Origin: a virus
Direction: 5' to 3' (one strand)
IMG/VR virus record: IMGVR_UViG_3300030107_002046
Coordinates: 1 to 56,545 of that record
DNA: 56,545 nucleotides
The position numbers and the translations under genes are program-made. The notes under the pieces were generated by a model. The model was not told the origin of the DNA. It was given only the letters and a program-made list of their open reading frames with translations, and did not search any database. Each line of letters begins with the position of its first letter. The stretch's first letter is position 1. Below, piece after piece: positions 34,183 to 39,956 of this stretch.

Positions 34183-34212
34183 AGGCGGTAACTACCTAAG
34201 TAGCTACCGCCT
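34183..34212 (-). terminator. Terminator at the end of the minus operon
   Basis: A long stem AGGCGGTA-CTAC / GTAG-TACCGCCT with loop CTAA and one mismatch; the minus strand then runs into nine T (A9 on plus at 34175-34183), while on the plus strand a T5 follows. It lies 5 bases beyond the stop of the 34218 gene and can act in both directions. Confidence 0.88.
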
Positions 34213-35188: not shown

Positions 35189-35247
35189 ATTCTGTTTCAT
35201 GGCTTTAGCCACTCATCAGTAGGAAAAACTTATTTCCTAGACAGAAT
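35189..35247 (-). ncRNA. Hammerhead ribozyme candidate A (type III)
   Basis: Read on the minus strand: ATTCTG-TC (cleavage after C, between 35240 and 35239), stem I TAGGAAA...TTTCCTA with loop TAAG(TT), core CTGATGA, stem II GTGGC-TAAA-GCCAT, core GAAA, then CAGAAT pairing with ATTCTG as stem III. All invariant core bases (CUGANGA, GAAA, GUC) are present and all three stems form. It lies between the VWA gene and the 34928-35161 gene. Confidence 0.85.
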
Positions 35248-35312: not shown

Positions 35313-35342
35313 GGTAGGATACCCCCTAAAAAGTATCCTACC
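35313..35342 (-). other. Perfect 10-base-pair hairpin just after the VWA gene stop
   Basis: GGTAGGATAC and its complement, loop of 10 bases, starting 10 bases past the stop at 35352. No T run follows on the minus strand, so it looks like a 3'-end protecting hairpin, with ribozyme A 66 bases further on. Confidence 0.7.
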
Positions 35343-35351
35343 CACACGATA

Positions 35352-36698
35352 TCAACGATAAGCTTCTGAGCAATCGACCCCAATAAACTCTCCAAATGGA
35401 ATGTTATCTCTGAATCTGTCTTCAAGATTATCCAATTCGTCTGACCATCTTGAAGTCAATCCCCAAAAGACTGGGATATCGGGTTCGTGTTCACTGCTGA
35501 CAGAAGCATAGCCATCAGTGAAATATATCAAGGCTTTGATATCTTGGTCATCGTCAGTGTAATCTTTGAGTAGATTAAACACTGGCTCAAACTTAGTATA
35601 TCCTCCGCCACGAAACTTAAACTCAATCTCATCGCCCATTGAGATATCAAAATCATCCCACCACTCATCCGTATCATGATTCTTGCGGACAACATAATCA
35701 CAGTAACAAACTCTGATCTTATCTATTCCGCATTCCTCTAGCATGAGTTGTGTTTCACTTGCCATATAATCTAACTCAGCTTGTGAGACTGAGCATGATG
35801 TATCAATGGCAATAGCTATCTCGCCACCATTAGCAGACTTAGTTTTGCTTGGCAGATTGATACCTCTCCACTGGTGTCTTCTGTTAAGTCTAGACCATGA
35901 GTAGTCATTAGCCATAACAGATTCCAAACAGTCTCTCAGATGATTCTTCCAGTCAACAGAAGCAGTCCTCATCTGTTCCACTCTGCCACTAAGAGCATTG
36001 GTCTGACCCTCAGACATATTGACTAGCTTGTCTCCTAAAACAATTTGCTTTCGGATACTGTTAGCCAATTCTTCAAGGGCTTCTTTAGATAAGGGCTTAC
36101 CATCATCGTCAGTTGGCTCGATGACTTCTCCAATAGATGTTGGAATATCATCGTACTTGCTATTGCCCACACCAGATTCGTCTGGTTCAGAAGAATATTT
36201 ACCAGTCAATGATTCTTCCTGACTTCCAACGGAATCGTCTTCTCCGTCTTGCTCATCTTCTGAATCGTCATTGCCTTGCATCTGCTTCTTAGCTTTATCT
36301 AAAGCATCGTCATCAGTATCAAGGATATGATAGACCTGTTCAGCAGACATCTTATGATACTCTCTATCCCATAAACCGCCATCGGCTAACTCCATCTTTA
36401 AGTCATAAAGAAGATAGTTGTTGATGGCATAGTCACAGGCAACATTCCACAGCTTATGATTTCGATTACCCTTTCTCAAAGGATGTTCCCAAATAACATG
36501 ACAAGCTTCGTGGATAAGTACCCCCTCAATCTCTTCGTCTGTATGATCATCAACAAACTTAGGATTATAGAAAATACTTTTCCCATCCGTAGCCATAGTC
36601 TCGCAGTCAGATTCCACAAAGGGCAGAGGTAATAGCATACTTGCTATACCTACATTACCCCTCATTAATCTAGACCTACATCTTATAAGCTTATCCAT
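35352..36698 (-). CDS. VWA-like protein with N-terminal putative metallopeptidase (DUF2201-like)
   Basis: 448 residues. N-terminal zinc motif His63-Glu-x-x-His67 (IHEACHVIW), an acidic disordered linker (about 128-190), then a von Willebrand A domain with the metal-site motif Asp299-Thr-Ser-Cys-Ser303, Thr368 (GGGYTKF) and Asp395 (YFTDGYAS). This matches DUF2201-type metallopeptidase/VWA proteins that work with MoxR ATPases as a chaperone or remodelling pair. The gene order with the ATPase and a linking protein supports this. The last gene of its ribozyme-bounded unit. Confidence 0.85.
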   Translation of the reverse strand: MDKLIRCRSRLMRGNVGIASMLLPLPFVESDCETMATDGKSIFYNPKFVDDHTDEEIEGVLIHEACHVIWEHPLRKGNRNHKLWNVACDYAINNYLLYDLKMELADGGLWDREYHKMSAEQVYHILDTDDDALDKAKKQMQGNDDSEDEQDGEDDSVGSQEESLTGKYSSEPDESGVGNSKYDDIPTSIGEVIEPTDDDGKPLSKEALEELANSIRKQIVLGDKLVNMSEGQTNALSGRVEQMRTASVDWKNHLRDCLESVMANDYSWSRLNRRHQWRGINLPSKTKSANGGEIAIAIDTSCSVSQAELDYMASETQLMLEECGIDKIRVCYCDYVVRKNHDTDEWWDDFDISMGDEIEFKFRGGGYTKFEPVFNLLKDYTDDDQDIKALIYFTDGYASVSSEHEPDIPVFWGLTSRWSDELDNLEDRFRDNIPFGEFIGVDCSEAYR

Positions 36699-37659
36699 TG
36701 TTACCTCCTAGCTTACCTAAGAAATCATCTTTTAATGGGTCAATAGCTTTTTCAAGATCACTTGCTACTTGATCTCTTTTGCTCTTACCACTTGCTGACT
36801 GATCTCTCAGTGAATCCACTGAATCTATCTTGGACATAACCGCCACTAGATTAGTGTGTGCCTTAGCAATGTCATCATCACTACCGAATACACTATCGTT
36901 AAATGATGGCAATACTTGGATAGCTTGTCTCAGCTTATCGACACTAGAATCCTTGAAGAATCCACCCTTTTTAACATTTTTAGGGTCATAGCTTTTAAGC
37001 TTCTCAGCTAAGTGGCCGACTTGCTCAACAAGAGCTTCAACAATAACTCTAGTCTGAGTAGCGATATTATTTTTGATACGATTCTCCACATCGTTTTCAA
37101 TTTTATTTCGCATAGTCTCAGAGACATCTAGCCTTAAGTCACTGCCATACTGAGAGATAAGATTAGTTTCAAAATCAAATTTGAATTTATCTTCTATCTC
37201 CCAGTCATAAGGGTAATCGCTTCTGTTAAAAGCATCCCCAAGTAGAGATTTAGCTTCCTCAATTTTCTGCGGATAACTTTTTATAAAAGCATCCACTTCT
37301 TTGAAGAAATCTTTCTTGGCAGTATCCATAGCTTCACTCAGATTATCTAGCTGAGTATTAGGACAAAGTCTCCACCCACTGACTACCTTGTCATCAACAT
37401 CAGTAGAGTTGTCATCCCAAGGCAAAGTCATTGGATAGTAAAAGTCATTCCTAACCTTATTAATTATTCTTCTGAAAAACTTGTCATGGGCTTTACCCAC
37501 CAAATGTTTCTGAACATTTAATAAGTCTGAATTAGCTTTTGTATCTTCAGCTAACTTCGTTCTTAGATTTTTATCTGATTTTATACCACTCCAATGCTTC
37601 GTTGTGAAACGAACAAGAACAGCTTTTTCAGACAGTAAAGTTTTATTTTTATTAGTCAT
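36691..37659 (-). CDS. Middle protein of the MoxR-VWA trio, helical
   Basis: 322 residues, mostly helical with coiled-coil stretches (DAFIKSYPQKIEEAKSLLG, ETMRNKIENDVENRIKNN, ALVEQVGHLAEKLK). It has no membrane segment or catalytic motif. Position between MoxR and VWA genes resembles DUF3150-type partners of such modules, a tentative match. The end overlaps the VWA gene start by 8 bases. Confidence 0.68.
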   Translation of the reverse strand: MTNKNKTLLSEKAVLVRFTTKHWSGIKSDKNLRTKLAEDTKANSDLLNVQKHLVGKAHDKFFRRIINKVRNDFYYPMTLPWDDNSTDVDDKVVSGWRLCPNTQLDNLSEAMDTAKKDFFKEVDAFIKSYPQKIEEAKSLLGDAFNRSDYPYDWEIEDKFKFDFETNLISQYGSDLRLDVSETMRNKIENDVENRIKNNIATQTRVIVEALVEQVGHLAEKLKSYDPKNVKKGGFFKDSSVDKLRQAIQVLPSFNDSVFGSDDDIAKAHTNLVAVMSKIDSVDSLRDQSASGKSKRDQVASDLEKAIDPLKDDFLGKLGGNNG

Positions 37660-37675
37660 AATAAATATTTACCCG

Positions 37676-38731
37676 TTAATATTCTAAGTCTTTGTTTTCG
37701 ACTTTAAACTCTGCAAAGACTGAAGTCTCTTTCAACTCTTCCCTTTTAGTTACTGCTTGTCTTACAAAGAAGATAGCAAACTCGGGAGTATCGAATTGCT
37801 TAACATAAGCTAAAGCATTCTCGAAGAAGCTATAGACTTCTTTCTCAGATGCATTAACTATTCTGTCTAGCAGAGCAATACAAGTTGCATAACATAATCC
37901 ATGATCATCGATTACTTCGACATCCTTACCTTTCAGTATTCCTGTAAGGTTTGGAACATCATCAACAAGAGAGACAAAGTTAGCAAACTCAATCGCAGTA
38001 GTCTCTCCGACATCACACTGAGCAATGTTCTGATACATATCTTTTGACGGATTAGTCTTCAGAGTATCACTCAGTCTTGTCCATGATCTTGGACTTGGTT
38101 GTGGCTCGGCTATCTTGGCATCAAATACATTCAATGCATTAGGTTGAAAATTCAAGAAACCCATCACAAGTGTATGGACATCATTTTTCATAGCCCAGTT
38201 AGACCAGTCATCAAAATCATGCTCAAAGTTAATCATTGAACATCTGCCAATAACATGAGACGGAAGCTTATTACTACCAGCTCTGTCACTAGCTCTGTTA
38301 CCCGCACAGATAATCTTCCATCCTTTAGGCAACACATACTCGCCCAGTCTTCTTTCGTAGATCAACTGGCCTACGATAGCCTGTACTGAGGGATGAGCTT
38401 GAGCATATTCATCAAAGAATAGTAGCCCATTATTACCCACTGGCAGATTACCTAGAAAGGCTCTCTGCTGAGTATTGTTGTCATCTATGAATGGCAGTCC
38501 GCCAAGATCAACAGATTCATAAAGAGACAATCTAAAATCAATGAATCCGTATTCATCTTTCTTAGGATTAATCTCATCTAAAGCTACCTTGCAGTCTCCC
38601 GCAAGATCACTCGCTAATTGCTTCACTACTGCCGATTTCCCGACACCAGTTCCACCTAGTAAAAAAGGAACATTGTTCCCTTGCAAGACAGATAGCATTA
38701 CCTGTCTAGCTTTAGTTGGTTTTAAATTCAT
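37676..38731 (-). CDS. MoxR-like AAA+ ATPase
   Basis: 351 residues from ATG 38731 (GGAGGTAAT upstream; the frame to 38770 would run into ribozyme B). Walker A GGTGVGKS at 26-33, Walker B LLFFDE at 103-108, sensor-like CAGNRASD and an arginine-containing GRCSMINF follow in the MoxR order. It would use ATP to remodel a target together with the VWA protein, possibly in virion assembly or host takeover. Gene order MoxR - helical partner - VWA is continuous. Confidence 0.88.
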   Translation of the reverse strand: MNLKPTKARQVMLSVLQGNNVPFLLGGTGVGKSAVVKQLASDLAGDCKVALDEINPKKDEYGFIDFRLSLYESVDLGGLPFIDDNNTQQRAFLGNLPVGNNGLLFFDEYAQAHPSVQAIVGQLIYERRLGEYVLPKGWKIICAGNRASDRAGSNKLPSHVIGRCSMINFEHDFDDWSNWAMKNDVHTLVMGFLNFQPNALNVFDAKIAEPQPSPRSWTRLSDTLKTNPSKDMYQNIAQCDVGETTAIEFANFVSLVDDVPNLTGILKGKDVEVIDDHGLCYATCIALLDRIVNASEKEVYSFFENALAYVKQFDTPEFAIFFVRQAVTKREELKETSVFAEFKVENKDLEY

Positions 38732-38760
38732 ATTACCTCCAAAATTTAAAACAATTGATT

Positions 38761-38780
38761 GATAGAACACCCGTTCTATC
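38761..38780 (-). other. 8-base-pair hairpin directly 3' of ribozyme B
   Basis: GATAGAAC / GTTCTATC with loop of 4 bases. It begins five bases after the predicted cleavage site of candidate B and would sit near the 5' end of the released MoxR-VWA message. Confidence 0.65.
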
Positions 38781-38844
38781 GCCTAGACTACCCAGTCAAA
38801 GACTGGATAGTTTCGCCACCTTTCAGTGTTGCTCATCAGTAGGC
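38781..38844 (-). ncRNA. Hammerhead ribozyme candidate B (type I)
   Basis: On the minus strand: stem I strand GCCTA, core CTGATGA, stem II GC-(AA)-CACT-GAAA-GGTG-GC, core GAAA, a 10-base-pair stem III hairpin CTATCCAGTC-TTT-GACTGGGTAG, then TC (cleavage between 38786 and 38785) and TAGGC closing stem I. The TGA stop of the upstream gene (38836-38838) is inside the CTGATGA core. Stem II has a two-base bulge; all core bases are canonical. Confidence 0.83.
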
Positions 38845-39129
38845 TAACGAATAAAAGACATCCTCCTTACCCTTATCTTCAACTTTCATTTCATAGTTGA
38901 AGTAGTTACGATCATGCATATAAGACAATTCTTTATCCATCATATCCTTGGCACATTCCATAGTTTGAGCAGACATTGCTAAAGACCATCTTTCGTCTTT
39001 CTCAGCAAGTTTACCGACATACTTTTTATACACTCGATACCTCAGCACTCTCTCTTGGTAATAAACATTACCTTGAGCATCTACATAATCTCCGTCTTCA
39101 TTCTTTCTAATATTTTTGTCTAAATTCAT
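38836..39129 (-). CDS. Hypothetical protein between ribozymes B and C
   Basis: 97 residues with GGAGGTAAC before ATG 39129. Sequence is charged (MNLDKNIRKNEDGDYVDAQG, then VLRYRVYKKYVGKLAEKDER) and ends FYSLAY. It may be a small alpha-beta protein; no family is recognised. Cleavage at candidates B and C would release it as a single-gene message. Its last codons and stop form stem I and core of candidate B. Confidence 0.68.
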   Translation of the reverse strand: MNLDKNIRKNEDGDYVDAQGNVYYQERVLRYRVYKKYVGKLAEKDERWSLAMSAQTMECAKDMMDKELSYMHDRNYFNYEMKVEDKGKEDVFYSLAY

Positions 39130-39160
39130 GTTACCTCCATTGATTTAAAACAATTAATAT

Positions 39161-39213
39161 TCTGCTTTCATGCTTTCGCAATCATCAGTCAAGATACACA
39201 TCTTGATAGCAGA
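39161..39213 (-). ncRNA. Hammerhead ribozyme candidate C (type III)
   Basis: On the minus strand: stem III TCTGC with GCAGA, cleavage triplet CTA (between 39207 and 39206), stem I TCAAGAT-GTGT-ATCTTGA (7 pairs), core CTGATGA, stem II TGC-GAAA-GCA with a T-T mismatch at its base, core GAAA. Stem II is short, but all invariant core bases are kept. A GNRA loop closes it. It lies just before the ribosome site of the 38836-39129 gene. Confidence 0.78.
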
Positions 39214-39230
39214 GGGGAGCATTGCTCCCC
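39214..39230 (-). other. Perfect hairpin directly 5' of ribozyme C
   Basis: GGGGAGC..GCTCCCC, next to the ribozyme's stem III and 5 bases beyond the stop of the 39236 gene. The same stem sequence is used in the capsid-gene terminator at 49153-49172, but here no T run follows on the minus strand. Confidence 0.75.
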
Positions 39231-39444: not shown

Positions 39445-39555
39445 TTAACCTCCTATTACAAATATTATCGTTATGTAGATAGCCACTGGTACATTCAACA
39501 GGGCAAGATACAATTCAAGATTCTTAGCGATTTCTCGCTTGATCAAGTAAATCAT
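39445..39555 (-). CDS. 36-residue membrane protein
   Basis: From ATG 39555, with GGAGG about 6 bases before it and an ATGA overlap with the preceding gene, to TAA 39445-39447. It has a basic start (MIYLIKREIAKNLELYLAL) and a hydrophobic C-terminal segment (LNVPVAIYITIIFVIGG), so it probably spans the inner membrane. Too short for a family call. Confidence 0.65.
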   Translation of the reverse strand: MIYLIKREIAKNLELYLALLNVPVAIYITIIFVIGG

Positions 39556-39881
39556 TTCGACCTCCATTGTCTTCTCAGCTTACCTATAAAGACATACAAA
39601 GGAATGAAGATCATACCTATTACACATCCAATCGCAGTTCCAAAAGCTAACTCCCATGAGCCAGTCACTGCTCCTCCTAGAAAATCAGATACTGTATTAC
39701 CAATACTAGCTCCAAATACTGCTCCTAAACCAGTTTGATACCGCTTAGGCAAATACTTCTCTATCTCATAACCAGTCATTGCTCCTAAGATCATGATTCC
39801 GTTATCAGTTATTCCGTAATAAATATAATTGCTTGATATTTGAATCAAGAAATTAAAAAATTCAATTACATATTCAATCAT
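39552..39881 (-). CDS. Glycine-zipper membrane protein
   Basis: 109 residues with hydrophobic segments at about 28-38, 52-72 and 78-98, containing small-residue motifs (GLGAVFGASIGNTVSDFLGG, GTAIGCVIGMIFIPLYVFIG) as in glycine-zipper proteins that can pack in membranes. The C-terminus is basic. It could influence host membrane integrity or superinfection. GGAGG lies 8 bases before ATG 39881 and is part of the degenerate ribozyme-like fold D. First gene of the region-7 operon. Confidence 0.7.
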   Translation of the reverse strand: MIEYVIEFFNFLIQISSNYIYYGITDNGIMILGAMTGYEIEKYLPKRYQTGLGAVFGASIGNTVSDFLGGAVTGSWELAFGTAIGCVIGMIFIPLYVFIGKLRRQWRSK

Positions 39882-39888
39882 TTAACAC

Positions 39889-39956
39889 CTCCAAAGTGTT
39901 TCGTTTATTGGCTATCTCATTCAGCTATGGTTAGCCACTTCCATAGGACACTGGAG
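39889..39956 (-). ncRNA. Degenerate hammerhead-like element D
   Basis: On the minus strand: CTCC-AGTG-TC, stem I CTATGG...CCATAG (loop of 10), core CTGAATGA with one extra base, no proper stem II, GAAA, CACT-TT-GGAG pairing as stem III. Because of the inserted base and missing stem II, cleavage is doubtful. The GGAG strand of stem III is the ribosome site of the next gene. TAGCC in the stem II region can pair with GGCTA of loop I. Confidence 0.35.

Follow-up and report, generated by a model that had tools for sequence, protein, structure and literature searches.

Clustered hammerhead ribozymes in prophages were described by Perreault et al. (2011), who reported cleavage both in vitro and in E. 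coli and suggested a role in transcript processing (PMC3088659). A 2023 paper still called it unknown what biological reason lies behind the clustering of self-cleaving ribozymes near phage-related genes (PMC10085705). The locus analysed here resembles the prophage clusters in that several hammerheads flank single genes or small gene blocks. What is added is a pair of placement rules, one for overlap with stop codons and one for hairpins; the main text of the 2011 paper contains neither 'stop codon' nor 'terminator' (PMC3088659). A literature search conducted largely outside subscription journals returned no report of stop-codon overlap or of a placement rule. The ribozyme at the center of this work, candidate B, is of a known kind; for its placement rule, the literature searched offered no precedent.

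The window, by which we mean the whole analysed stretch of 56,545 nucleotides, is part of a 57.8-kb IMG/VR record and comes from a tailed phage with terminase, portal and primase-helicase genes. Its portal protein is nearest to those of Pelagibacter phages HTVC027P and HTVC023P and of other aquatic phages (38-48% identity for the better matches). An operon on the minus strand extends from ~39.9 kb down to a strong intrinsic terminator (34212-34183). Three hammerheads (A, B and C) and one degenerate copy (D) lie on the same strand between genes of this operon, and A, B and C thus form a clustered array of the kind described in phages, with several ribozymes on one strand between one operon's genes. 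The features are:

34183-34212, minus: intrinsic terminator closing the operon, a 13-pair stem followed by a U run.
35189-35247, minus: candidate A, type III, predicted cut after C17 at 35240; Rfam Hammerhead_3 39.7 bits (gathering 48.5, E 3.6e-5), model R2 E 9.7e-10.
35314-35341, minus: hairpin GUAGGAUAC...GUAUCCUAC, located after the VWA-peptidase stop and 5' of ribozyme A; whole spacer -34.3 kcal/mol.
37676-38731, minus: gene downstream of B, MoxR-like AAA+ ATPase; ribosome-binding site GGAGG, phrog_1297 E 1.3e-75.
38761-38780, minus: hairpin GAUAGAAC-GGGU-GUUCUAUC directly 3' of B stem I, near the predicted 5' end of the downstream mRNA; -10.0 kcal/mol with leader, z -4.9.
38781-38844, minus: candidate B, type I hammerhead, open at stem I, with loops closing the other two stems; core and stems complete, covariation, model R1 89.1 bits (training member).
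38836-39129, minus: gene upstream of B, encoding 97 aa without a Pfam match; L003 and L004 carry homologues.
39161-39213, minus: candidate C, type III, predicted cut after A17 at 39207; R2 74.2 bits (training member), helix covariation.
39214-39230, minus: GC-rich hairpin GGGGAGC-AAU-GCUCCCC between a stop codon and ribozyme C; -12.4 kcal/mol, z -2.8.
39896-39951, minus: candidate D, degenerate type III, CUGAAUGAG core with an A6a-type insertion, weak stem II.

The intact ribozymes A, B and C each lie 5' of a ribosome-binding site, and their three leaders are similar (AATTGT-TTTA-type). Candidate C carries a U10.1-U11.1 mismatch, of a kind reported to be tolerated (PMC3088659). In D an A is inserted after A6, and a version with an intact core is present in L002; low activity has been reported for the A6a insertion (PMC3088659). 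Among the matches listed, each of 14 related records has 1-5 type III matches, mostly on one strand and near one another. The named relatives (Pelagibacter HTVC027P and HTVC023P, Roseobacter CRP-7 and CRP-902, Caulobacter GB2A and others) gave no R1 or R2 match, for which the narrowness of the models may be part of the reason, and blastn of the ribozymes against named phages yielded nothing useful.

Several observations concern the genes around the array. Positions 35352-38731 (minus) encode a trio consisting of the MoxR-like AAA+ ATPase, a protein with a weak DUF3150 match and a metallopeptidase/VWA protein (DUF2201_N and DUF2201), which is likely to be a functional module. The small protein at 39552-39881 (minus) has a Pfam TMEM65 match barely over the cut-off (26 vs 25 bits). 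A peptide-pattern search of viral contigs for the upstream protein of B (P0002) found no relatives. In L001 the MoxR protein has 99% identity, neither the 97-aa gene nor ribozyme B is present, and ribozyme C lies directly before the MoxR gene; the two regions (L001:4900-5020 and window 38720-39230) look as if they differ by a deletion or insertion between two similar leaders.

The first-pass annotation had placed B at exactly the coordinates given above. B contains the invariant core, C3UGANGA9 ... G12AAA15.1 ... U16.1H17, with three helices around it and the open end at stem I, as in type I hammerheads. Read 5' to 3' on the minus strand, its parts are:

38844-38840, minus: stem I 5' strand, GCCUA.
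38839-38833, minus: core CUGAUGA.
38838-38836, minus: UGA stop codon of the gene 39129-38836, identical to U4-G5-A6 of the core.
38832-38815, minus: stem II, GCAACACUGAAAGGUGGC.
38814-38812, minus: GAA.
38811-38787, minus: stem III hairpin, ACUAUCCAGUC-UUU-GACUGGGUAGU, 11 pairs and a UUU loop; the helix covaries in homologues.
38786, minus: C17, in the triplet GUC.
Between 38786 and 38785, minus: predicted cleavage site, 3' of C17, as follows from hammerhead anatomy.
38785-38781, minus: stem I 3' strand, UAGGC.

Rfam gave no family at gathering score for B or elsewhere in the window, where all matches were sub-threshold. The best Rfam match of B was the RAGATH-1 hammerhead, which scored 27.2 bits (E 0.0076), below the gathering threshold of 56.3. 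A strict hammerhead descriptor found two type III sites in the real window; in simulated windows with the same dinucleotide make-up it averaged 0.05 sites of type I and 0.03 of type III. The AA bulge in stem II kept its type I form from detecting B, after which the covariance model R1 was built for the B family. Compared with Hammerhead_1 (RF00163), B shares the CUGANGA / GAAA core, the three stems, the UH17 triplet and the open stem I, but the family model does not match it. B has a short, 5-bp stem I, a conserved AA-bulged stem II (GCAACACUGARAGGUGGC) and a 5' arm that is coding sequence. The part of RAGATH-1 (RF03152) that matches is in the same permutation as B, whereas nothing in B corresponds to model positions 1-25. 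The type III hammerheads (RF00008) A and C, in the same operon, differ from B in that neither overlaps a stop codon and a hairpin separates each from the stop.

An exact IMG/VR search for the stem II region of B gave 26 stretches among the matches listed. When 16 distinct phage homologues were aligned, 99.1% of the pair cells were standard pairs, and the type I alignment held 55 double-sided compensatory cells; shuffled controls gave 16.9 ± 3.2, and sliding the helices gave no more than 10. Stems I and III covary; stem II is invariant in the pattern-selected set and varies among R1 matches. The stem I variants in the 16-homologue alignment are GCCUA/UAGGC, ACCUA/UAGGU and ACCAA/UUGGU, and further type I sites have CACUA/UAGUG or AUACU/AGUAU. 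Position -6 is an invariant A, and both this and the constancy of stem II, in a set that was picked by its stem II pattern, fit a contact between stem I and the stem II loop. For type III the corresponding covariation count was 84 double-sided cells vs 23.8 ± 4.2. That B might be inactive, a hammerhead-like sequence that has decayed or arose by chance, is suggested by the lack of an Rfam match at gathering level, by other folds within a few kcal/mol, and by a homologue in L004 (3006-3070) whose GAAA box contains an additional U (GAUAA). The extra U, however, occupies the position of the natural U13a insertion, which likely changes the structure little (PMC3088659), and the intact core and strong covariation across many phages make this reading very improbable. 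Comparative sequence evidence therefore confirms B as a type I hammerhead ribozyme belonging to a real family.

Other variants were seen among the related sites. An extra unpaired U at the A9/stem II junction (CUGAUGA-U-GGAAC...GUUCC-GAAAC) occurs in type III copies in L007 (4893-4948 and 6106-6167), L048, L059, L079, L093 and L096. In hammerhead-like sequences at L007 ~8829 and L008 ~6138, several small hairpins in a row, from CUGAUGA to GAAA, apparently replace stem II. The 5.4-kb contig L069 holds a very dense array, with four hammerheads of type I and at least two of type III.

The sequence bears out the first-pass statement that the TGA of the gene 38836-39129 is the UGA in the CUGAUGA of B. 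The same annotation took the last three sense codons as the stem I strand, which is correct for the last two (GCC, and the UA of UAC, whose C is C3) but not for UUA, which falls outside the 5-bp stem. The overlap of stop and core recurs among related sites, but its exact form is not conserved. In L002, which shares the ribozyme and the downstream gene, a UAA lies 12 nt before the core; L003 and L004 have UGA at +1; and in other homologues of B the stop is at -8, -9, -10, +1 or +14, in all three frames.

We scanned for type I sites with R1, which gave 52 distinct sites, other stem II sequences included, 50 of them with an upstream ORF by a length rule (among the matches listed). At 45 of these 50 the stop lay at -12 to +14 relative to C3, with peaks, likewise among the matches listed, at -8 (UAA, 16 sites), +1 (UGA, 11) and +14 (UGA in stem II, 7). 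For type III sites of the clade, by contrast, the stop was at least 22 nt upstream of the ribozyme at 134 of 140 sites among the matches listed. The intervening spacers are GC-rich hairpins of diverse sequence. Of 99 unique spacers among the matches listed, 91% had z < -2, and the median z was -4.7 vs -0.57 for equal-length coding controls.

An independent sample with different stem II sequences was collected by pattern search, classified and deduplicated. A stop fell within -24 to +10 nt of the 5' edge of the ribozyme at 46 of 65 type I but only 3 of 34 type III sites among the matches listed (random positions 7%; Fisher p = 2e-9), with ORFs called by length alone, some upstream stops wrong, and sites of one contig family not fully independent even after deduplication. 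The 40 nt upstream were more structured at type III than at type I sites (p 8e-6, among the matches listed). Type I stops were about equally divided among the frames (17/15/14), as expected if phase is incidental, and only 2 of 46 long ORFs seemed to run through a type I cleavage site. These data, from ~300 related sites, show that type I hammerheads usually abut or overlap the upstream stop, whereas type III hammerheads sit behind a stop-proximal hairpin.

A hairpin also follows the predicted type I cut in 20 of 28 clade leaders of at least 14 nt. In B this is the hairpin at 38761-38780, whose pairing is kept in L003 and L004 through an A-U to G-U change. By eye, such a 5' hairpin seems absent from most generic type I sites and is therefore outside the general rule. 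An extended stem I in B (CGUU/AACG) was considered and dropped because it is absent from L002 and L003; the hairpin that is kept uses the same nucleotides.

The explanation that we consider probable is that B cuts a polycistronic mRNA between the small gene and the MoxR-like gene, with protection of the resulting ends and an economical overlap with the stop. B would cleave itself after C38786, and the purpose of each cut would be the release of mRNAs with structured ends. In bacteria, 3' exonucleases are usually held up by a hairpin near the 3' end. At a type III site the ribozyme body would depart with the downstream RNA, and the upstream RNA would therefore need a separate hairpin as its 3' barrier. 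At a type I site the body (stems II and III) would stay on the upstream mRNA and end it in the stem III hairpin, so that nothing further would be needed between stop and ribozyme and the stop could abut or enter it. A stable hairpin after the stop, near the cut and on the upstream product, as expected of an mRNA 3' end formed by a ribozyme, is indeed found in both classes, in the spacers of type III and in the stems of type I itself. It is from this placement that we infer protection of the upstream mRNA by 3' hairpins.

The UGA inside CUGAUGA would then be an economical overlap, since the type I stems would supply the upstream barrier, and the 5' arm and core of B would double as the gene's final codons and its stop. 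CUGANGA would stop one frame at +1 and this stem II a second at +14, with genes in the third frame ending just before, and a gene that had lost its own stop could thus end inside the ribozyme. A ribosome finishing the gene would have to unfold the ribozyme transiently, which need not be regulatory. At the seven sites with a stop at +14 (L012, L013, L020, L023, L025, L026 and L030), the 5' arm and core of the ribozyme are translated, and differing proteins share the C-terminal tail T-[DE]-E-Q-H.

The first-pass annotation had further argued that a ribosome terminating at the stop would cover the ribozyme. The geometry is right, and stem I and core would be covered at most type I sites. Terminating ribosomes might then hold stem I and core open, so that cleavage is delayed during translation and proceeds once translation stops, and it fits this idea that the stop is mostly near enough at type I sites and mostly out of reach at type III sites. 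Although the minimum-energy fold of the 72-nt B sequence is the hammerhead, in a 106-nt stretch with more upstream coding sequence it is a hairpin in which the last codons pair with the core (UUCGUUAG/CUGAUGAG), so that the position of a ribosome could change the fold. This pairing is lost in L002 and L003, and we dropped the hairpin as a conserved switch because relatives do not keep it. Moreover, stop position and frame differ among close relatives, and the compared sites revealed no regulatory partner, conserved spacing or conserved switch. Hairpins account for the contrast between type I and type III, and the overlap has a simpler cause, since type I brings 3' hairpins with it and phage genes are closely packed. 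We therefore regard a ribosome-dependent delay as unlikely. It is quite unlikely that a type I ribozyme on a stop codon is gated by ribosomes and couples processing to translation while a type III ribozyme, behind a hairpin and more than 20 nt away, is independent of translation.

Compactness might also suffice without any role for the hairpins: intergenic elements would simply start at the stop, the overlap would be meaningless, and the contrast would reflect only that some cassettes were inherited with hairpins and others without. Indeed, 45% of same-strand neighbors in the contigs of the independent sample are at most 15 nt apart, and gene-ribozyme cassettes are seemingly gained and lost, as between L001 and the window. 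Nevertheless, the contrast repeats in the independent sample, which was deduplicated and has other stem II sequences, and the type III spacer hairpins have many different sequences, so shared descent alone is an unlikely cause, and we consider this reading as a whole rather unlikely. The closeness of stops at type I sites (46/65) exceeds that general compactness, and an additional force may therefore act. Under the explanation by end protection and economical overlap, type I stops outside the -24 to +10 window (19/65 among the matches listed, some far upstream) are allowed, though not predicted.

The placement rule makes the role of phage hammerheads testable by swap experiments. In ribozyme B the same nucleotides specify the last amino acids, the stop signal and the catalytic core in one RNA. 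With predicted cuts that nearly always come after an intact ORF, the rule suggests that these ribozymes act as 3'-end-forming elements.
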